DNA of 64,000 nt, taken from assembly GCA_030159075.1 (NCBI GenBank), contig BROG01000809.1, positions 124,001-188,000 of the forward strand, read 5' to 3'. The first letter of the stretch is position 1. The number at the start of each line of letters is the position of its first letter. This DNA comes from Atrina japonica (Eukaryota > Mollusca > Bivalvia > Pterioida > Pinnidae). Of the stretch, positions 33,310 to 48,700 are shown in pieces. A program made the position numbers and the translations under genes. The notes beneath the pieces were generated by a model. That model was not told where the DNA came from. It did no database searches and saw nothing but the letters and a program-made list of their open reading frames with translations.

Positions 33310-33940
33310 ATTTCAGATACCAAAGTATAAATCAATAGAATGTCCAGGACATAGATACAAATCCGGTAAAAATGGACGAACGTGGATCTCTGGAAACCAA
33401 GAGGTGGGATCAGGTGCCATGGAGGAGTAAGCATCCCCTGTCGACCGGTCACACCCGCCGTGAGTCCACAGTCAAGTCCAATGAAACACGTGAGGAGTGT
33501 ATCCTCGTCACAATTGGTACAGACGTCTCAACAACCGCCAACGAAAAGGCAACTCAATATTTCACTTAGTGAAACAGAGTAGTCGCAAACAAGACTATTA
33601 TACCGACCGTAATATTTGCGGAACGTTGACATTAAACGCGGTTTTCGATATCCCTGTGTCAATAATTTGTCAGTGAGTAGTTTACCTCTGTATATGAAAT
33701 CTTCATATGTTGTGCACGCCCTGGCATATCGGATCATTTGTGAAATATAAACTCCATATGCGGGTGGCTGAGGAATATTACTACTTAAATGTGGAAAATT
33801 TACGATGGGAAAGCCGAAATCGTCGCGTTTATCGTATAGCTTAGTTGCTAATATCCCGTCTGTGTTTATATTAAGTAAAATGTCTAAGTATGAAGCGTGT
33901 GTGCTTGATTCTGTTGTATCTTTAGATATTCAATGAAAAC
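33310..33940 (-). mobile_element. Penelope-like element, 3' fragment (copy 2, minus)
   Basis: Reverse-strand copy of the same 3' part as 6181-6895. The frame at 33737-33528 ends CLFVGGC, and the 3' UTR ends at AAATTTCAGATACCAAAG (33310 region). One-base differences break the upstream part (near 33793). 5'-truncated. Confidence 0.88.
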
Positions 33941-36341: not shown

Positions 36342-36382
36342 AGGTTTCTTTTCGAATAAGTTTGGTGGCCCTTAAAAGGGCC
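36342..36382 (-). terminator. Histone-type 3' stem-loop 1 with downstream element
   Basis: On the minus strand, GGCCCTTTTAAGGGCC (36382-36367) fits the histone mRNA stem-loop consensus (six-base stem, four-base U-rich loop) and is followed by ACCA. Twelve bases further lies TTCGAAAAGAAACC (36355-36342), like the purine-rich histone downstream element recognised by U7 snRNA. It sits about 37 bases past the stop of the small gene 36708-36419. Confidence 0.8.
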
Positions 36383-36418
36383 GTTAATTGCTCCGAAAAG
36401 CTGAATAAGAGAGAGACT

Positions 36419-36708
36419 CTAATATCTGTCGAGTAGAACTTCTCTTTCTTTCCCTATCATCAGTCGATTTATCTCGGCCTTATGTTGTCGAAGATTGGCT
36501 AATGTTTCCTGAGCTAGTACGTATTGTACAGGTACTGGAAGTGAAGGGTCAGGTCTAGGTGGTTCCTGGTGTTGTGTAGTTGGTGTCGCAGGGGTCCTAC
36601 CAGAATTTATCGGGGTGAGTGGCCTTACTACAATACGTGTCCTTCTTGTAAGAAGATTCTCATGTTCCTCTCTTCAGGTTGCATCTCCATGTCGGATGAG
36701 TTATCCAT
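36419..36708 (-). pseudogene. Small gene of second viral-like locus (one frameshift)
   Basis: ATG at 36708, MDNSSDMEMQPEER..., with a shift near 36660 into a frame that is open to a TAG at 36419. That frame reads a basic stretch (TRRTRIVVRP), a Pro/Thr/Gln-rich middle (TPATPTTQHQEPPRPDP) and a C-terminal helix (LANLRQHKAEINRLMIGKE). A TATATAAG box lies about 36-43 bases upstream of the ATG, and a histone-type stem-loop follows the stop. Total about 96 codons. No family recognised. The promoter-ORF-stem-loop unit is what supports it as a gene. Confidence 0.55.
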
Positions 36709-36741
36709 GATGAACTAATACCGAGACTCAGACAGTACTAG

Positions 36742-36750
36742 CTTATATAG
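36742..36750 (-). promoter_or_regulatory. TATA box of the small gene
   Basis: CTATATAAG on the minus strand, about 36-43 bases before the ATG at 36708, implying a very short leader. Confidence 0.5.
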
Positions 36751-36782
36751 AGTTAATGATGTCACATATTGATTTTTCCCGT

Positions 36783-37085
36783 CCAGTCATCTGGCTATCT
36801 GTTTTTAACATCTGGCCACCTGTTTTTGACATTTTGAAAATTGGCATCTGACCACCTGTTTTTAACATCTGGCCACCTGTTTTTGACATTTTGACACTTG
36901 GCATCTGGCCACCTGTTTTTGACATTTTGACACTTGGCATCTGGCCACCCGTTTTTGACATTTTGACACTGGCATTTGACCACCTGTTTTTGACATCTGG
37001 CCACCTGTTGTTGACGATTTTTCAAGGAAGAGTTTCATTTTTTCTCGTCTAGACATCTGCGTCTAGACATCTGCCCACCTGTTTT
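36783..37085. repeat. 36 bp minisatellite between divergent genes
   Basis: Unit GACATTTTGACACTTGGCAT + CTGGCCACCTGTTTTT, about eight full or partial copies. It sits between the minus small gene and the plus PolB, in the shared promoter region. A single unit-like piece (AACAGGTGGCCAGATGTCAA) marks the far end of the inverted PolB copy at 42168-42190. The MSKTGGQMP-type minus frames here are repeat translation. Confidence 0.85.
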
Positions 37086-37317
37086 AAGGCAAATACTGTC
37101 ACTAGTTTTAGTATTTCTAATTCTATATGAAAAAAAACGAAATAAAATAAATTCTAGTTTTATGGGCCGGTAAACATAAACATTAGGATAAAACAGAGTA
37201 TATATGTGTGATGATACTTCGTTTGAGTATCTATACAGTTATTTCCTTTTCATTATAATACATGTATATAGTTACTGTACTTCATTTTAGATTTGAGAAA
37301 GGAAGCATACACACAGA

Positions 37318-40300
37318 ATGGCTAATTTACCCAACTTTGATTTATTGTTAAATGAAAGACAAGAACAGGCCAGAAGTCAAAGACAGGCCCACCAGAGTGG
37401 GTGATGGAATTAATGCAAATAGACAACTCACCAATTATAGTGATTACTATGAAGTAGACACCCTGAGTGAGCGTAAATCACGCAAGTTTAAAACGGCCTC
37501 GAATGTGTACCAAGTCAAGTTTAAACATTTTCTAAAGATGCCATACACTTGGTATCAGAGGTAATATATCATATGGTGACTTCTATTAAGAACAAACTGC
37601 AGTGTGAAGATCGGGATAAGATGCGAGTCAATATACATCATCCATCTTTAAAAAGTGAGGTGTGGGTAGAATTTACGGATGCTAAAGACCTGAATGCTGA
37701 TCTACTCATGGAGAAAATTGTGAAAGTACAACAGAGTAATGAAAATTTTAGAATCGAAGATGGGTCTACCACCCTGTCAGTGATCCATGTCATACAACCT
37801 GTAGGTAGCGGGGATGGAAAACGAAAATATCAGCTCTCAGTGTTGATAAAAATGTCATGCTGAACAAGAAGCAAAATTTGATACAGATCAAGAATACAGA
37901 CAAGACCTGTTTAACTCGTGCTATTGTAGTTGGTCGCTTTCATTGTCAGAAACCTGGACTTGGAGATGGAGACAAGTACAAAAACTGGCAACTATATTGG
38001 AAACAAATAATTTATGGTGATGCAAGTAGACATACTCTTCAACGACGAGAAGCTCATACCTTAATGCAACAAGCTGGATGTGATCCCCAGCAAGAGAGTG
38101 TACCTGAGGAATGGCAACGTTTTCAAACCGCGTCGTTACCACACTACCGTTTGAAAATCTACGAAATGAATACCACCGCAAAACGATTGACATTAAATGT
38201 ACTGTATAGTGGTGTAGGATCCGGTGCCTCCATTCACGTCTTATACGAGGATCATCATTACAATTGTATAGTATCTATCTCTGAACTCTTGGAATGTAAT
38301 TACTATTGTGATCGTTGTGATGTGGGTTATGATCATGTAGAAGATCACCAATGCTCTCATTGCTGCTTTCGATGTTTTGCAGCGTCGCCCTGTGTTCCCG
38401 ACAACACGATAACACCTATAGAATGTACACATTATCAGGGGACATTCACATCGACTCATTGTTGCGAGAATCATTTGAAACCTTATAGTAGAAAAACGAC
38501 CACTACTCCATGTCAGCTAATGACTCGATTTCCCACTTGTCAGTTATGGATGAGTAAGATACAATTCACACAACAAGAAAAGAAGAAAAAATGTCACCAT
38601 TGTAAACAGATCGTGGATCTAGATCATCGCTGTTTTATACAAAGGATTCCTTCTCAGAATGCATCATCTTCGCCCCTTATTTCATTTTCTATGATTTTGA
38701 GTGTACCAAGGATACCGGAGAACACAAGCCTAATCTATGTATTGCTCATCAGTATGTCCCCAGTGTACATCAGATTATTGGTATGAGCAATGTAAAACCA
38801 TGGAGGATCATCGTATTACATTCCGAGGTCCCACGACACTCACTGATTTTTTTAGTTGGTTATTTGAAACGACCGTGTATGATGACATACATCAAAGAGA
38901 GAAACTTTTACATGATGGGGCTATAGCTATTGCTCATTACTTTAAAGGGTACGATGGACAGTTTATTTTACATCATCTGGTACATCATGCCTGTGAAAAA
39001 CATGATGTGATCATGAACGGTTCTAAGATTATGTCTATGACGACAGGAAACATCGTGTTTAAAGACTGGTGTAATTTCTTGTCATTTCCTTTAGCTTCGT
39101 TACCTAAAGTTTTTGGATTGACTGAACTCAAGAAAGGTTACTTTCCGCATATATTCAATACAGAAGCTAATGCCGATTACATAGGGGTATATCCCCCAGC
39201 TATGTATTACAACCCAGAAGGTATGAAACCTGATGTTTGTCGTAATTTTGAAGAGTGGCATCAAGACAAAATTCGAAAGGGTGAGATATTTCATTTGCAA
39301 TGCGAATTAGAAGAATACTGTGAATCGGACGTGACTATTTTGCTACAGGCTTGTATGCATTTTCAAAGCATGTGTTTGAAACTAGCCGATGTGGACCCAT
39401 TTACTCAATCGATTACGTTTGCCAGTACGGAGAATACAGCATATCGTCGCAATCTTATGCAAAAAGAAACGATTGCTACCATACCTCCACGGGGATATCC
39501 TTCGGCACGACAGTATTCCACCCTAGCATTACGCTGGTTGAGTTGGAAAGAACATCAAACTGGTCAAACGATTACACATGCTCGTCATGGAGGTGAAGTC
39601 CAAGTAGGATCTTATCGAGTGGACGGTTATCATTAAGACTCTCGGACCATTCACGAGTTTCATGGCTGTTTTTGGCACGGATGTCCCTTGTGTTTTCCTA
39701 ACTTGAAACAAGAGCAACACCCGTTTCATCCCTCTTTGACGTATGAAGAAGTGTATCAAAAGACCTTAGAGAGAGATCAGTATTTGCGTCAACACTATCA
39801 AGTAGAAACGTTGTGGGAACATGACTATCGTCAAATGTACAAGACGGATCCAGAGTTTCAACACATCATTGATAAAACGTATGAGGATTTTCCCGACCCG
39901 TTAGTTCCTGAAGATGCTTTATTTGCAGGTCGAACGAATGCTACTCGTTTGCTTTGTGAAGAAGGAGACATTCGTTACGTGGATGTATGTTCTTTGTACC
40001 CGTTTGTCTTGAAACATGAAACTTTTCCAATTGGACACCCAGACGTGATTACTCATGATTTTAAAAGTCCAGATCAACATTTTTGGACTGGTACAATTTC
40101 GAGTTATTCCTCTTCGTCAGCTGTTTCATCTCGTGTTACCTGATCGGTTTTCACAGAAGCTATTCACAGAATTATTCTGTTACAACAGAAGACCAAGTGG
40201 TGTACAATGCAGTGTGATCGTTACTATCAGAGTCTACTGATGGAACTCAATCAGAGATGGAGGCAACTTAAACACCAGCAAACTTCACAGAAAGTCAGAG

Positions 40301-40476
40301 ATCCACTCGCACGGCTGTACCGACAGTGCTTAGACTATTTCTCAGCTCAGTATGTTTGTACTAGAAAACAGATTAGAGCTAGTTTTCGTCAACTACAGAT
40401 ACCGATCATCATTACTATCAAGAGAAAGCCAGATGATCTACGGGAAGCAGAACGACGTTTACCTCTGAAAAATTGA
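37318..40476 (+). pseudogene. Protein-primed DNA polymerase B (broken, truncated palm)
   Basis: The likely start is ATG 37318 (MANLPNFDLLLNERQEQ). Frameshifts occur near 37400, 37550, 37860 and 38740, and an in-frame TAA at 39634-39636. Readable parts: an N-terminal domain (37430-38650) with several Cys pairs (YYCDRCDVGYDHVEDHQC, KKKCHHCK); exonuclease motif I FYDFEC near 38690; FKGYDGQFIL (motif II region) near 38940; YCESDVTIL (motif III, Y-x3-D) near 39318; and palm motif A YVDVCSLYP near 39978. No KxxxNSxYG or YxDTDS motif follows: after about 40140 unrelated sequence (MQCDRYYQSLLMELNQRW...) closes the frame. So the catalytic palm is deleted. Confidence 0.82.
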
Positions 40477-40510
40477 AGATGTTACTGTCAATATTAGTAA
40501 CCTAACCAAC

Positions 40511-40547
40511 GTCCCTTTTCAGGGCCACCCAACTCATTAGAAAAGTA
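40511..40547 (+). terminator. Histone-type 3' stem-loop 2 with downstream element
   Basis: GTCCCTTTTCAGGGCC (40511-40526) followed by ACCC, then TTAGAAAAGT at 40537-40546, 11 bases on. One stem position is mismatched. It follows the PolB stop (40476) by 35 bases. The 5' flank AACCAAC matches that of stem-loop 3 (AACAAC). Confidence 0.75.
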
Positions 40548-40594
40548 ATCTAAACTGTATTGAGATATGCTATATCTACTACTCTGTAAAACAC

Positions 40595-40656
40595 TCCTTC
40601 TCATAAACCCTATAACTCATTTTAATGTCTCATAAACCCTATAACTCATTTTATTG
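40595..40656 (+). repeat. Tandem 32 bp duplication
   Basis: TCTCATAAACCCTATAACTC + ATTTTA occurs at about 40598 and 40629 in direct orientation. Confidence 0.8.
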
Positions 40657-40680
40657 TATACACTGCACATTCAGTTTAAA

Positions 40681-40719
40681 GTTTCTTTTCGTAAAATATA
40701 AGTGGTCCTGAAAAGGACC
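40681..40719 (-). terminator. Histone-type 3' stem-loop 3 with downstream element
   Basis: On the minus strand, GGTCCTTTTCAGGACC (40719-40704) is a perfect match to the histone mRNA stem-loop pattern. ACGAAAAGAAAC (40692-40681) follows 12 bases later, almost identical in sequence and spacing to stem-loop 1. It ends the deleted PolB copy on the minus strand. Confidence 0.85.
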
Positions 40720-40745: not shown

Positions 40746-41912
40746 TCATGCAAAGAATCTCTTGTTAAACGACAAACACTTCTCGTCCATCTGCTTATGT
40801 TTTAATACATAGCTGGGGGTATAATCAACATTAGCTTCTGTATAGAACAAATGTGGAAAGTATTCTTTCTTGAGTTCATGGTAATGTGTACATTCTATAA
40901 GTTTTATCGTGTTGTCGAGAACACAGGGCCACGGTGCAAAACAACAAAAACAGCATTGAGGGCATATGTGATCTTCTACATAATTATAACCAACATCACA
41001 ACAATTGTAATTATATTCCAAGAGTCCAGACATAGATACTATACAGTTGTAATGGTAATCATCGTATAAGACATGAATGGGGGCCCCGGATCCTAAACCA
41101 CTATACAGTACATTTAATGTCAATCGTTTTACGTTGGTATTCAGTTAAACGTTGCCATTCTTCAGGTTCACTCCCTTGCTGCTGGGGATCACATCCAGCT
41201 TGCTGCATTAAGACATGAGCTTCTGGTCGTTGAAGAGTAGTCCTTTTCGCATCGCCATATATCAAGGTTTTCCAATTTTTGTACTTGTCTCCATCTCCAA
41301 GTCCAGGTTTCTGACAATGAAAACGACCAACTACAATAGCACAAGTTAAACAGGTTGGTCTTTATTCTTTATCTGTATTAAACTTTTTTTCTTGTTCAGA
41401 AAGACTTTTTTATCAAAACTTTTTCCACACCCGCTACCTACAGGTTGGATGACATGGATCAGGGTGGTAGACCCAACTTCGATTCTTAAATTTCCAGTAC
41501 TCTGTTGTACTTTCTCCATGAGTAGATCAGCATTCAGGTCTTTGGCATCCGTAAGTTCTACCCACACTTCACTTTTTAAAGATGGACGATGTATATTGAC
41601 TCGCATCTTATCCCATTCTTCACACAGTAGTTTGTTGATAGAAGTCAACATATGATCTAATACCTCAGATACCAAGTGTATGGCATCTTTAGAAAAATGT
41701 TTAAACTGGACATGGTACACATTCGAGGCCGTTTTAAATTTGCGTGATTTACATTTACTCAGGGTGTCTACTTCATAGTAATCACTGTAATTGGTGAGTT
41801 GTCTGTTTGCATTAAATCCATCACCCCGTTGATCTCTCTAGTGAGCCTGTCTTTGACTTCCCGCCTGTTCTTGTCTTTCATTTAACAATAAATCAAAGTT
41901 GGGTAAATTAGC
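40746..41912 (-). pseudogene. Internally deleted PolB copy
   Basis: Homologous to the N-terminal third of the plus copy: FNANRQLTNYSDYYEVDT region, KSEVWVELTDAKDLNADLLM, LGSGAPIHVLYDDYHYNCIV. After LIECTHYH it jumps directly to ELKKEYFPHLFYTEANVDYT, which matches about 39128-39180 of the plus copy, so about 700 bp are missing. It then leaves homology. The start codon is GTG at about 41912 where the plus copy has ATG. It keeps the 3' stem-loop. Confidence 0.8.
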
Positions 41913-42404
41913 CACACCTTGTGTATGCTTCCGTTGTCAAATCTAGAATGAAGGTCAATAACTGTATATATGTATTTATAATAAAAAGGAACTAACTGTA
42001 TAGATACTCAAACGAAGTATCATCACACATAAATATTCATAACGCTATGCTTTATTCTATTTTTTTTATGTTTACAGGTACATCAAACTAGGAATTATTT
42101 TATTTCGTTTTATTTTCAATAGGATTAGAAATACTAAAAACTAGTGACAGTATTTGTCTAACAAAACAGGTGGCCAGATGTCAAAAACAGATGTAGCATG
42201 TCACATATCTATTAAATAGTCACAATGTCATTTATAGCATGTCACTGATCTTTTATACAGTCACAAAATTCAATAATATATGTAGCATGTCACAGATGTA
42301 TTATAACAGTTACAATGTTAGGGAATAGATGTAGTATGTTACAGTCATAATATCAGTAATAGATGTAGCCTGTCACATACACTTTATACAGTCATTTATA
42401 CATT

Positions 42405-42545
42405 GTGGCTGTATAATAGATCTGTGACATGCTACATCTATTACTTACATTGCGACTGTATAATAGATCTGTGACATGCTACATCTATTACTTACATTGC
42501 GACTGTATAATAGGACTGTAACATGCTACATCTAATACTGACATT
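42405..42545 (-). repeat. Inverted segment of the 47 bp satellite
   Basis: Three units in reverse orientation (TGTGACATGCTACATCTATT) flanked on both sides by forward units, making two orientation switch points. Confidence 0.9.
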
Positions 42546-43783
42546 GTAGCATGTCACTGATCTTTTACACATTCTAAAATTTCAGTAATATAGGTAGCAA
42601 GTCACAGATGTATTATACAAGCCTAATATCAGTAATACATGTAGCATATTACAGATCTATTATACAGTTCTAATGTCAGTAATAGATATAGACTGTCACA
42701 GATCTATTATACAGTCACAATGTCAGTACTAGAGGTAGCATGTATAGGATCTATTATACAGTCACAATGTCAGTAATAGATGCAGTATGTCACAGCTCTA
42801 TTATACAGTCACAATGTCAATAAAAGATGTAGCATGTCACAGATCTAATATACAATGACAATGTCATTTATATAGAGGTAGCAGTTACATATATATAATA
42901 CAGTCATTATGTCATTTATATAGATGTAGCATGTCACAGATGTATTAAACAGTCACAATGTTAGTAATAGATGTAGAATGTTACAGATCTATTATGCAGT
43001 CATAATGTCATAGATGTATTGTATTTTATATGTCAGGTAATGATGTAGCATGTCACATATGTATTATACAGCTACAATGTTAGTGAATAGATGTAGCATG
43101 TCACAAATGTACTATACAGTCCTAATAGACGTGGCATGTCACAGATCAATTAGACAGTCACAATGCCAGTAATAGATTTAGCATGTCAGATATCTTTTAT
43201 ACAGTGAAAAGGCCGGTAACAGATGTAGCATGCCACAGATCTATTATACAGTCACAATATCAGTAAGAGATATAGCATATCACAGATCTATTATATAGAT
43301 CTATTATACAGTCACAATGTCAGTAATTGACATAGCATGTCAAAGATGTATTATACAGTTATAATGTCATATATAAATGTAGCATGTCACAGATCTATTA
43401 TACAGTCACAATGACAGTAATAGATGTCAAGGAGCTATTATTCATTTAAATGTCACAAATAGATGTAGCATGTGCATTATCCAGTTACAATGTCAATAAT
43501 AGATGTAGCATATCATTGAAGTACAATACATTTACAATGTCATTCATATATATAGCATGTCAGAGATGTATTATAGTCACAATGTCAGTAATAGATATAG
43601 CATGTCACAGATCTATTAAACAGTCACAAGATCAATTATAGATGTAGCATGTCACAAATCTATTATACAGTTACAATGTCAGTAATAGATGCAGCCTGTC
43701 ACAAATCTATTAAACAGTCACAATGTTATTCATAGATGTATCATGTCACAAATCTATTATACAGTCACAATGTCAGTAATAGA

Positions 43784-43933
43784 TTGTAAATGTATTGTAC
43801 TTCAATGATATGCTACATCTATTATTGACATTGTAACTGGATAATGCACATGCTACATCTATTAGTGACATTTAAATGAAGAATAGCGCCTTGACATGCT
43901 ACATCTATTACTGTCATTATGACTGTATAATAC
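43784..43933 (-). repeat. Inverted copy of satellite flank at Penelope 5' end
   Basis: This is the reverse complement of about 43395-43528, sharing its private variants (AAGG(A/C)GCTATT, CATGTGCATTATCCAG, TTGAAGTACAATACATTTAC). It lies directly against the Penelope insertion. Confidence 0.88.
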
Positions 43934-45755
43934 CGGGAAGCCCGCTCCTTTAATTGGCGTCAGAATTTCAGTTTAGTTATGTATTCTGTCGAAGATTATG
44001 CCAGACGATGGGCCAAACATGAAGACGTAGAACCAGACACTTTGTCTGAATGGCTGAAAACCATACGATGGTTGATAAAATCTCGTATTCGAAATCTTAA
44101 AGGGACTATGAAAACACGTTATCCCTCTGTATTTAATGATCCAGAAGTAGTAACTGAACTGGATAGGTTACATGACCAATATGTACTGGTACCAGCAGAC
44201 AAAGCCTCAAATAATACAGTTTTTATTTGTAAGGCACACATTACTATAATTGTTTATTAGAAGAACTTGGGTTTAATACGAATTCTGGTAATCCTACATA
44301 CACGCGTAGCTCACTTTCAAAGGACAAGATCCTTCAAAATCACGTATCCGTATTACGCTCATTTGATATACCTACAACGGATACCGATTTCGAGCTACCA
44401 TATTTATATTGGATACCTAAACTTCATAAAACCCCATATAAGCAAAGATACATAGCAGGATCCAGCAAATGTTCTACCAAACCTTTATCTTTACTCCTTA
44501 CCAAGATATTGACAGCCGTTAAGGAGAAACTTCAACAATACTGTACAGTTGCTTATTCCAGAAGCGGTGTAAATCAGATGTGGATACTTAAAAATTCTAA
44601 ACAGCTTTTAGAAAATTTGAAGGCACACAATTTTTCTCGAATTCACAGTATCAAAACTTATGACTTCTCTACTCTTTACACTACTATTCCACATAAAAAA
44701 TTAAAAGAAAGACTTTTCAGCATCATAGACAACTGCTTTTTTCACTAAAGGTGGTACCCGAAAAATTTAAATATCTAGTGATTGGCTATCAGGATACTTA
44801 TTTCGTCAAACACCACTCTGATTCTACACATAAATATACTGAAGTTGATATTAAAAACATGCTGGAATTTCTAATAGACAATATATTTGTAATGTTCGGA
44901 GACGTGGTCTTTCAACAAACTGTCGGCATTCCTATGGGAACCAATTGTGCTCCTTTATTGGCCGACCTGTTCCTTTATTCATAGGAAGCAGACTTCATTC
45001 AGAAACTGCTGAATCAAAAGAAGAAAAAGTTAGCGGTGTCCTTTAATTTGACATTTAGATATATCGACGATGTTTTGTCAATTAATAATGACAATTTTCA
45101 TACATATGTCAATGCGATATATCCCAGCGAACTAGAAATTAAAGATACAACAGAATCAAGCACACACGCTTCATACTTAGACATTTTACTTAATATAAAC
45201 ACAGACGGGAAATTAGCAACGAAGCTATACGATAAACGCGACGATTTCGGCTTTCCCATCGTAAATTTTTCCACATTTAAGTAGTAATATCCCTCAGTCA
45301 CCCGCATATGGAGTTTATATTTCACAAATGATCCGATATGCCAGGGTGTGCACAACATATGAAGATTTCATATTCATATACAGAGGTAAACTACTCACTG
45401 ACAAATTATTGACACAGGGATATCGAAAACCGCGTTTAATGTCAACGTTCCGCAAGTTTTACGGTCGGTATAATAGTCTTGTTTGCGACTACTCTGTTTC
45501 ACTAAGTGAAATGTTGAGTTGCCTTTTCGTTGGCGGTTGTTGAGACGTCTGTACCAATTGTGACGAGGATACACTCCTCACGTGTTTCATTGGACTTGAC
45601 TGTGGACTCACAGCGGGTGTGACCGGTCGACAAGGGATGCTTACTCCTCCATGGCACCTGATCCCACCTCTTGGTTTCCAGAGGTCCGTGTTCGTCCATT
45701 TTTACCGGATTTGTATCTATGTCCTGGACATTCTATTGATTTATGCTTTGGTATC
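43934..45755 (+). mobile_element. Penelope-like element (copy 3, longest)
   Basis: Penelope RT element in the satellite array. The RT starts at or before 43979 (MYSVEDYARRWAKHEDVEPD) and is read across at least three frames: VPADKASNN near 44193, PYLYWIPKLHKTP near 44400, TYDFSTLYTTIPH (motif A) near 44660, GIPMGTNCAPLLADL (motif B) near 44928, TFRYIDDVLS (motif C) at 45054. Breaks: frameshifts near 44258, 44500, 44750 and 45270 and an in-frame TAG at 44982-44984. It ends CLFVGGC at 45541, then a 3' UTR to TTTGGTATC (45755), where the satellite resumes. No GIY-YIG nuclease domain follows the RT. Confidence 0.9.
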
Positions 45756-48700
45756 ATGTCACAGGTCTATTATACAGTCAGAATGTAATTAATATATTTA
45801 GCATGTCACAGTCACAATGTCAGTAATATTTGTAGCAAGTCTCAGATGTATTATACAGTCACAATGTCAGATATAGATGTAGCATGTCACAGATCTATTA
45901 TGTAGTCACAATGTCAGTAAAAGATGTCGAAGTCAGAATGTCATTAACAGATGTAGCATGTCACAGACCTATTGCACAGTCACAATGTCAGTAATATTTG
46001 TAGGATGTCTCAGATGTATTATACAGTCAGAATGTCAGTAATAGATGTAGCATGTCTCATATCTATAATACAGTCATACAGTCACAATGTAAATAATAGA
46101 GGCAACATGTCACAGATCTATTATACAGTCACAATGTTAGGAATAGAGTGATGTCAAAGATCTTTTATACAGTCATAATATCAGTAATAAACATAACATG
46201 TCTAAGATGTATTATACAGTTACAATGTCATTTATAGATGTAACATGTCATATGTCTATTATACAGTTATAATGTCATATATAGATGTAGATTGTCACAT
46301 CTATTATACAGTCACAATGACAGTAATAGATGTAGCATGTCAAGGAACTATTATTCAGTTAAAATGTCACTAATAGATGTAGCATGTTTATTATCCATTA
46401 CAATTTCAAAAATAGATGTAGCATATCATTGAAGTACTATACAGTCACAATGTCATTCATAGATATAGCATGTCAGAGATGTATTATACAGTCACAATGT
46501 CAGTAATAGATATAGCATGTCACAGATCTATTAAACAGTCACAAGATCAATCATAGATGTATCATGTCACAGGTCTATTATACAGTCAAAATATCAGTAA
46601 CAGATGTAGTATGTCACAGATGTATTGTATAGTTATAATGTCAGTAATATATGTAGCATGTCACAGATCTATTATACAGTCACAATGTCAGTAAGAGATG
46701 AAGCATATCACAGATGTATTATACAGTCACAATGTGGGTAATAGATGTAGCATGTCAGAGATGTATTATACAGTCACAATGTCAGTAATGGATGTAGCAT
46801 ATCACAGATGTATTATATAGTCACAACGTCAGTAATAGATGTAACTTGTTACATATCTATTATACAGTCAAAATATCAGTAACAGATGTAGCATGTCACA
46901 GATGTTTTGTATAGTTATAATGTCAGTAATAGATGTAGCATGTCACAGATCTATTATACAGTCACAATGTCAGTAAGAGATGAAGCATATCACAGATGTA
47001 TTATACAGTCACAATGTCAGTAATAGATGTATCATGTCACAGATCTATTATACAGTAGCAATGCCATACATAGATGTAGTACATCGCAGATCTATTATAC
47101 CGTCACAATATCAATAACATATGTAGCAGGTTACAGATGTATTATACATTTAAATAACAGTAATAGATGTAGCATTTCAAAGACGTCTTATTCAGTCACA
47201 ACGTCAGCAATAAATGTACCATATTACCAATTTATTATACAGTCACAATGTCAGTAATATATGTATAATGTCACAGATGTATTGTACATTGACATTGTCA
47301 GTAATAGATGTAGCATATCACAGATCTAACAGTTAAAAAATTCAATAATATATGTAGCATGTCAAGATATATTATATAATCACAATGTCAGTAATACAGG
47401 TAGCATATCACAGATGAATTAAATAGTCCTAATGTCAGTAATAGATGTAGCATGTTGAAGATATATTATACAGTCACAATGTCAGGTATAGATGTGGTAT
47501 GTCACAGATCTATTGTAAAGTCATAATGTCATAGATGTATTATACAGGCACAATGTCAGTAATGGATGTAGCATGTCACAAATGTATTATACAGTCACAA
47601 TGTCAGTAATAGATGTAGCATGTCACAGATGTATTATACAGTCACAATGTCAGTAATGGATGTAGCATGTCACAGATGTATTATACAGTCACAGTGTCGG
47701 TAATGGATGTAGCATGTCACAGATGTATTATACATTCACAATATCAGTAATAGATGTAGCATGTCAATGATGTATTGTATAGTTATAATGTCAGTAATAG
47801 ATGTAGCACGTCACAGATCTATTATATAGTCACAATGTCAGATATAGATGTAGCATGTCACAGATGTATCATAGTCACAATGTCAGTAATAGATGTAGCA
47901 TGTCACAGATGTATTATACAGTCACAATATCAGTAATAGATGTAGCATGTCACAGATGTATTATACAGTCAGAATGTCAGTAATGGATGTAGCATGTCAC
48001 AGATGTATTATACAGTCACAGTGTCAGTAATGGATGTAGCATGTCACAGATGCATTATACATTCACAATATCAGTAATAGATGTAGCATGTCAATGATGT
48101 ATTGTATAGTTATAATGTCAGTAATAGATGTAGCACGTCACGGATCTATTATACAGTCACAATGTCAGATATAGATGTAGCATGTCACAGATGTATCATA
48201 CAGTCACAATGTTATTAATAGATGTAGCATGCCACAGATCTATCATACAGTTACAATGTCAGTAATAGATATAGCATGTCACAGATCTATCATACAGTCA
48301 TAATGTCAGGTATAGACGTAGTATGTCATAGATGTATTATACAGTCAAAATGTCAGAGATGTATTATACAGTCACAATGTCAGTAATAGATGTATCATGT
48401 CACAACTATTATACAGTAGCAATGTCATACATAGGTGTAGTACATAGCATATCTATTATACAGTCACAATATCAATAATATATGTAGCACGTTACAGATG
48501 TATTATACATTTGAATAACAGTAATAGATGTAGCATATCAAAGATTTCTTATTCAGTCAAAACGTCAGTAATAAATGTACCACATTGCCGATTTATTATC
48601 CAGTCACAATGTCAGTAATATATGTATAACGTCACAGATGTATTGGACAGTGACATTGTCAGTAATAGATGTAGCATGTCTCAGATCTATTATACAGTTA

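Follow-up and report, generated by a model that had tools for sequence, protein, structure and literature searches.

The locus is a broken remnant of a Polinton (Maverick) type element, pieces of which number in the hundreds in this genome, and it lies within the 64 kb window, i.e., the whole stretch of DNA analysed here. It carries a gene for an organellar/viral-type DNA polymerase B (polB; 37,318-40,143, plus strand), two pieces of which match the Pfam family DNA_pol_B_2 (E values of 8.5e-16 and 2.9e-8); the gene is interrupted by stops and frame changes, lacks its C-terminal part, and was assigned its start by comparison with other copies in the genome. On the minus strand, the list of open reading frames includes the 3' part of a gene denoted F1 (36,419-36,673), broken in frame in the window copy and homologous to the F1 frames at three other loci (L016, L071, and L073). 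A remnant of a second gene, F2 (40,144-40,497, plus strand), was delimited by tblastn with the F2 of locus L070 and, at its junction, by blastn against the same locus; its frame ends early in the window, at 40,476, the stop of the F2 family corresponding to 40,495-40,497. The remaining piece (40,746-41,837, minus strand) is rearranged, consisting of an inverted second N-terminal part of polB (inverted repeats I3, I10, I12, I16, and I25) and the C-terminal tail of a third gene, F3 (F3-family match, row L031).

Three hairpins had been reported at this locus in a preliminary description, and all three are present: stem-loop A, GGCCCTTTTAAGGGCC (36,367-36,382, minus strand), 36 nt past the F1 stop; stem-loop B, GTCCCTTTTCAGGGCC (40,511-40,526, plus strand), 13 nt past the F2-family stop; and stem-loop C, GGTCCTTTTCAGGACC (40,704-40,719, minus strand), 26 nt downstream of the stop codon that ends the F3 tail. 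That all three fit the histone mRNA stem-loop pattern, as had been claimed, is confirmed: A (RF00032 match at 36,387-36,341, minus strand, 38.3 bits, E 1.1e-7) and C (40,724-40,679, minus strand, 38.0 bits, E 1.6e-7) are the only two Rfam matches within the 64 kb window above a gathering score (34 for RF00032). B (40,506-40,551, plus strand, 27.4 bits with E 2.1e-4 when 10 kb were scanned) scores below that cut-off because its second stem pair, the one broken pair, is T.C; it carries the same signal as a decayed copy of the stem-loop of F2 genes. The GAAAAG element, read in the sequence downstream of each hairpin (36,348-36,353, minus strand; 40,540-40,545, plus strand; and 40,685-40,690, minus strand, for A, B, and C, respectively), starts 13 nt after the stem each time, not 11-12 bases as initially described. 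Similarly, the reported distance of 35-40 bases past a stop is correct for A and needs revision for C and for B, the latter being 34 nt past the end of the shifted frame in the window.

The preliminary assignment to a Polinton-type element is supported by the polymerase and by a packaging ATPase found in the same family of elements. polB (PF03175, DNA_pol_B_2 type), which by its family is of the putatively protein-primed type, has 143 matches in the genome; the ATPase is of the A32/FtsK type (at L015, Pox_A32 with 26.5 bits vs. a cut-off of 22.8) and has 155 matches, mostly in units away from polB. A candidate penton-like capsid protein was indicated by fold, the model of a relative matching the mavirus penton (6g41) with an E value of 4.9e-12 and a TM score of 0.44 by query. 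Positions 1913-2368 of L078 are 52% identical to the stretch behind the rve-like domain of L081, a domain that itself remains below the Pfam cut-off (27 of 32.6 bits), and this genome yielded no integrase catalytic core. As for terminal inverted repeats, the C710 copy has partial inverted blocks only, about 72-82% identical. Three distant Polinton-type relatives that we examined (L079-L081) have no stem-loop signal. Viral contigs provided no relative by alignment of the polB piece or the ATPase and no match to the stem-loop pattern; a single match to a wider pattern in these contigs was rejected as GC-rich, phage-like coding DNA.

Stem-loops and element genes were searched throughout the 832-million-base assembly. 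The exact 19-mer GGCCCTTTTMAGGGCCACC occurs 759 times (357 + 402 occurrences), and a chance origin is excluded because the reversed control yielded none (0 + 0); 665 of the 759 have GAAAAG at 13-14 nt past the stem (control, 0). The exact F3-type stem-loop is present in 172 copies (control, 0). The RF00032 cut-off was passed at 72 of 75 scored sites, and among the 36 of these 75 loci that were examined (i.e., the 30 best and six of the seven weakest), 35 represent the element and one (L010) a host histone H1 gene; element genes are carried by 34 of the 36, L013 qualifying only through its own F1b, and L007 is element DNA. In 56 distinct stem-loops, the 3' flank is ACC in 44 and ACT in 10, and the purine element RARAAG lies at 13 nt in 42, at 14 nt in nine, and is absent from five. 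Stem pair 3 is changed on both sides in F3, from C-G to U-A; this covariation amounts to one double change, and 321 of 500 shuffles equal it in the number of such pairs.

Five small genes, F1-F5, are followed by the stem-loops, with a spacing characteristic of each family. A perfect stem-loop no more than 90 nt from the gene end was found in 7/7 rows of F1, 2/2 of F1b, 9/21 of F2 (9/19 distinct), 11/17 of F3, 2/3 of F4, and 15/15 of F5 (13/13 distinct), with L031 and W being one locus, L076 and L077 overlapping, and L006 appearing twice for F5; because the stem-loop itself served to select 30 of the loci, these counts are inflated. The distance from stop to stem is 34-36 nt in F1 (42 in one case), 28 nt in F1b, 13 nt in F2 (10 in one copy and 23 in a divergent one), 25-27 nt in F3, 25-29 nt in the better copies of F4, and 16-18 nt in F5 (13 in one case). 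The signal occurs on the coding strand only, the opposite strand showing none in any gene family among the rows examined. It is also absent from the 21 rows of penton-like, BIR, and CCHC (zinc-knuckle) genes, or 25 rows when polB is included, i.e., at four true polB gene ends (L058 was left out as an end artefact). That is, the combination of stem-loop and GAAAAG recurs in other copies behind the same genes, and not behind every gene. Copies lacking the stem-loop, which that description regarded as evidence against its reading, do exist; where a perfect stem-loop is missing from a copy, mostly the same site is present with mutations or a deletion.

Three well-preserved copies that were fetched by polB, and were thus not picked by their stem-loop but chosen for long polB frames, have kept 11 of 14 stem-loops, one with a G-U wobble (F1 of C367 is not included in this count, and L074 (C91), whose polB piece is followed by 8 kb devoid of any stem-loop-bearing gene, was left out). 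Further, 39 of 79 polB copies (second pieces of one copy not counted) have an exact F3-type stem-loop 4.4-8.4 kb downstream, on the opposite strand; on the same strand as polB there is none within 15 kb among the 100 F3-type stem-loops listed. The F1-F5 proteins show no clear mutual similarity except for F1/F1b (phmmer), and F1, F1b, F2, F3, F4, and F5 have no Pfam histone match. In terms of element layout, the stem-loops of F1 and F4 are located near the element ends, and stem-loops also lie where F2 and F3 converge.

The host linker histone H1 gene at L010 (Pfam, E 1.5e-21) has the same stem and the same 13-nt spacing as the element, and its only similarity to the element is a stretch of 39 nt across the stem-loop and GAAAAG, 92% identical. 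H1 is the sole host yardstick because core histones were not seen (PF00125, 12 pieces; the search for H4 was empty, had no control, and included some stretches that read N). Of the host processing machinery, the RNA-binding domain of SLBP (PF15247) matched two neighbouring pieces of C97 with 53.7 and 38.6 bits. U7 snRNA was not found with RF00066, whose nine matches genome-wide are all sub-threshold (best, 26.9 bits), and a loose U7 pattern gave 408 matches vs. 395 for its control. Four candidates among the first 100 places listed (L089-L092), as well as a fifth (L093) from a stricter pattern with one match vs. one in the control, were rejected for having no U7-like hairpin after the Sm-like site.

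Poly(A) signals are distributed differently among the element genes. AATAAA overlaps the polB stop in all four copies; it is found 40-64 nt past the stem in 13/15 rows of F5 and 48-49 nt past the stem in 9/11 rows of F3 with a perfect stem, and poly(A) ends are therefore possible for these two genes. In F1, F2, and F4, the rows whose stem is perfect are free of AATAAA over the 150 nt following the gene end. At up to 60 nt from the gene end, A(A/T)TAAA is also present in three F2, two F3, three F5, and one BIR rows.

Based on these sequence patterns, the element probably borrows the histone mRNA 3'-end machinery of its host for F1-F5, and SLBP and U7 would likely end the messages of these genes without poly(A). 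Under this hypothesis, SLBP would bind the stem of the F1-F5 messages, a putative U7 would pair with the purine element, and CPSF73 would cut between the stem and the purine element. The five messages would be expected to build up chiefly during S phase, and their products would therefore be made while the host, and the element, replicate their DNA; the polymerase message would be polyadenylated and free of S-phase timing. Whether RNA 3' ends thereby set up a two-speed gene programme, with polB on poly(A) and the five other genes hard-wired to the histone pathway and expressed during DNA synthesis, is a more tentative matter, for which we see a slightly better than even chance.

Alternatively, the stem-loop might be a passenger that was acquired from a histone gene of the host, spread from one element gene to another, and is now rarely used or not at all, with the messages being polyadenylated downstream. 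The similarity with the H1 end and the AATAAA past the stems of F3 and F5 are consistent with such a history, as are the 12 of 21 F2 rows with no perfect stem, yet genes as dissimilar as F1-F5 (F1/F1b excepted) have a common stem, ACC/ACT flank, and purine element at 13-14 nt, and the stem change in F3 is compensated. In addition, the perfect-stem rows of F1, F2, and F4 are devoid of AATAAA, polB has AATAAA at its stop and no stem-loop, and the mutated stems probably sit in dead copies; hence, we consider disuse of the signal rather unlikely. A function at the DNA level with no RNA processing involved, e.g., the formation of cruciforms, a signal for replication or packaging, or a block to transcription where genes converge, would agree with the location of the stem-loops near the element ends (F1 and F4) and between F2 and F3, but is difficult to reconcile with their restriction to the coding strand downstream of a gene end in the rows examined, with the match to a covariance model built for the RNA signal of histone messages, asymmetric loop and flanks included, and with a purine element at the U7-like position, making this function improbable.

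We give hardly any credence to decayed histone genes, to insertion of the element into a histone cluster, or to chance palindromes as the source of the signal. RF00032 is a signature of histone genes, and the L010 match is indeed a real H1 gene; however, F1-F5 lack a Pfam histone match and 35 of the 36 loci are the element, and on these grounds a histone cluster and histone pseudogenes were rejected. Chance palindromes were likewise rejected, given the Rfam scores and the empty reversed-pattern controls.

If use of the host histone pathway by F1-F5 is true, this would be the first known mobile element or virus family in which histone-type ends serve an entire set of genes. Should the signal be used, five non-histone genes, with the signal present hundreds of times in one genome, would break the histone-only rule, Polintons would gain a cell-cycle switch, these competitors could burden the SLBP/U7 pathway of the host, and RNA-seq of poly(A)-selected RNA would underrate the F1-F5 genes.

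Histone mRNAs are described in PMC12775136 as a class of their own, the only eukaryotic transcripts to lack a poly(A) tail. With the replication-dependent histone mRNA 3' end (RF00032, SLBP/U7 snRNP), the element genes have in common a 6-bp stem, a four-base loop starting UUU, an A-rich 5' flank, an ACC 3' flank, a purine element 13-14 nt downstream, a short stop distance, and short uninterrupted reading frames; unlike histone genes, they are non-histone genes of a mobile, virus-like element, and their U7 complementarity and lack of poly(A) are predicted. We found no published description of a Polinton-type element with histone-style ends on its genes: a survey of Polinton-like viruses (PLVs) and virophages counted six such stem-loops, and none in cryptophyte PLVs, the relevant part of the survey being a count only, with no gene context or function (PMC12220804), and PMC11071308 mentions neither histones nor stem-loops. 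The DNA_pol_B_2 polymerase, A32-like ATPase, putative integrase-region homologue, candidate penton-like capsid protein, and many integrated copies are all in common with Polinton/Maverick elements and adintoviruses. The elements described here differ from these in the histone-type 3' ends on five genes, which the three distant relatives lack, and in having their polB and ATPase copies mostly in different insertions. Finally, hairpins also set the 3' ends of transcripts in giant viruses such as mimivirus, where viral enzymes add poly(A) to the transcripts; in contrast to hairpin ends of this type, the signal here is the histone signal of the host.

The three histone-type hairpins lie in a broken copy of a Polinton-type element that, by reading frames and repeat analysis, occupies ~35.2-42.1 kb of the window on both strands. 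Reading frames place gene F1 on the minus strand and the DNA polymerase B gene (polB), spread over several frames, on the plus strand; comparison with other copies identifies an F2 remnant joined to polB at ~40153 by an apparent deletion, and repeat analysis a second polB piece, inverted and fused to an F3 tail. The histone pattern of the preliminary description was borne out at 36367-36382 and 40704-40719 (both minus) by covariance search with the Rfam histone 3' UTR model RF00032, above its gathering score of 34, whereas the hairpin at 40511-40526 (plus) matched below that score, with a single broken pair that is intact in other F2 copies. The purine element GAAAAG is indeed downstream of all three, but starts 13 nt after the stem rather than 11-12. 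Inverted stretches 96-98% identical (33316-33929 and 45140-45755) lie either side of the remnant, accompanied by reverse-transcriptase-like frames that resemble the Penelope type, with no support on Pfam search. A tandem array of a 47-nt unit spans 42335-43900, and the same unit recurs at ~45750-46000.

The stem-loop design is, at the sequence level, well supported as real and genome-wide. Across the 832,074,514 bases searched (2,347 contigs), RF00032 scored 75 sites out of 155,611 first-look candidates, 72 of them above the cut-off. There are 759 copies of the exact 19-mer GGCCCTTTTMAGGGCCACC (none of its reversed control), 665 of them with GAAAAG at 13-14 nt (control, 0), and 172 of the F3 form GGTCCTTTTCAGGACCACTT (control, 0); since element amplification underlies these counts, they document what the sites are and how far they extend, but not separate origins. 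Reading 36 of the Rfam loci, namely the 30 top-scoring ones and 6 of the 7 weakest, showed element genes at 34, with L013 counted by its own F1b (similar to F1) alone; L007 is element DNA. The single non-element locus, L010, is a host linker-histone gene with the stem-loop GGCCCTTTTAAGGGCC 28 nt past its stop and GAAAAG at 13 nt, showing no similarity to the element, at the threshold used, beyond the 39 nt that span stem-loop and GAAAAG.

The stem-loop closes five families of small genes, each at its own distance from the stop. In rows (gene-copy entries) taken mostly from loci picked by a stem-loop, it was perfect in 7/7 for F1 (34-36 nt from the stop, one copy 42), 2/2 for F1b, 9/21 for F2 (13 nt, one 10, one divergent 23), 11/17 for F3 (25-27 nt), 2/3 for F4 (25-29 nt in the better copies) and 15/15 for F5 (16-18 nt, one 13), with zero on the opposite strand in any family. 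Homologous copies keep stem-loop plus GAAAAG behind F1-F5, but not behind the other genes examined: no stem-loop follows polB at 4/4 true ends, where AATAAA overlaps the TGA stop, nor the penton-like (0/2), BIR (0/7) or zinc-knuckle CCHC (0/12) rows. In a small unselected sample, three polB-fetched copies chosen for long polB frames (C710, C397, C367), the stem-loop was kept in 11/14. A positional test not picked by stem-loop (79 polB copies, contigs up to C446) showed, among the F3 matches listed, that 39/79 have an exact F3 stem-loop on the opposite strand, 4.4-8.4 kb downstream of polB, and that two more lie nearer polB on that strand; none of the 100 matches listed lay on the same strand within 15 kb.

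By Pfam, polB is DNA_pol_B_2. It adjoins a 352-aa protein whose relative P0124 (81%) gave a model (pLDDT 82) matching the mavirus penton 6g41 (E 4.9e-12, TM 0.44), as well as adomavirus and adintovirus proteins. A related unit, L015/L078, carries a polB piece, an A32-like ATPase and a stem-loop-bearing F1-like gene, and includes a stretch sharing 52% identity with the part of L081 that lies behind a weak rve-integrase match. Together, polB, penton-like protein, ATPase and integrase-region homologue constitute a Polinton-type gene set. The polB and ATPase/integrase units are mostly separate insertions, with stem-loop genes in both: on contigs C1-C48, with 17 polB and 15 ATPase copies, no polB-ATPase pair lay within 20 kb, two did among the matches listed (C410, 9.8 kb; C915, 12.3 kb), and the polB piece in L078 is a further association. 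The two kinds of unit may belong to separate element families, be deletion derivatives, or form one element in two parts. Several polB copies (L032-L060) shift frame near one place (around IQPVGSG.. / KKVMLNKK), perhaps by an old shared mutation or by programmed frameshift. The polB unit encloses a gene with a BIR (inhibitor-of-apoptosis) domain (L070:3950-4567, minus; E 1.2e-21); some of the IAP expansions reported in bivalves might consist of element genes. In the oyster Saccostrea echinata, P0052 (281 aa, predicted 'putative inhibitor of apoptosis') joins a BIR part to roughly the C-terminal 60% of the Polinton ATPase.

The stem-loop genes encode short, basic proteins, with a pI of 8.2-10.7 when read from the first Met and 9.3-10.7 across the open frame. 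They have no clear mutual similarity except F1/F1b (F5 versus the zinc-knuckle protein, 0.019), and Pfam gave only sub-threshold matches, in F2 and F3. The F2 relative P0121 was modeled as two long helices (pLDDT 80, from 3 sequences only). The charge of the stem-loop gene proteins allows a guess at a nuclear or DNA-binding role. Four of the five have a C-terminus in which cysteines come after a basic stretch (F2, KKRRCYCQY; F3, KKRFCS; F4, KMVCCRCL; F5, KRTKCFLCHG), with no other clear similarity among them.

In histone genes, stem-loop-binding protein (SLBP) binds the stem, U7 pairs with the downstream element, and a cleavage complex, active in S phase, cuts between the two (PMC9756948). SLBP is present in the host genome; U7 was not found there. 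We consider it likely that the signals of F1-F5 would let this host machinery end the element's messages without poly(A). Use of the stem-loops in element RNA is a prediction: F1-F5 messages would end after the stem and rise in S phase, and the polB message would be polyadenylated. AATAAA follows the stem by 40-64 nt in 13/15 F5 rows and by 48-49 nt in 9/11 perfect-stem F3 rows, whereas no perfect-stem row of F1, F2 or F4 has it, so F3 and F5 may additionally give polyadenylated messages, which is also the case for some histone genes (PMC9756948). These signals slightly lowered our confidence in host SLBP/U7 processing, which we still favor.

Relatives of the element ATPase occur in S. echinata (P0052) and in metagenome-assembled contigs of bivalve symbionts (L081, from Bathymodiolus, and P0034, from a bivalve-dwelling symbiont). 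An Rfam search admitting E values up to 0.5 found no histone stem-loop in the distant relatives L079 and L080 (6-7 kb fragments) or L081 (broken frames), and the design therefore looks lineage-specific. No description of such a design was found in the open-access papers searched. One survey counts six histone 3' UTR stem-loops in Polinton-like viruses and virophages, and the section giving that count does not comment on them (PMC12220804).
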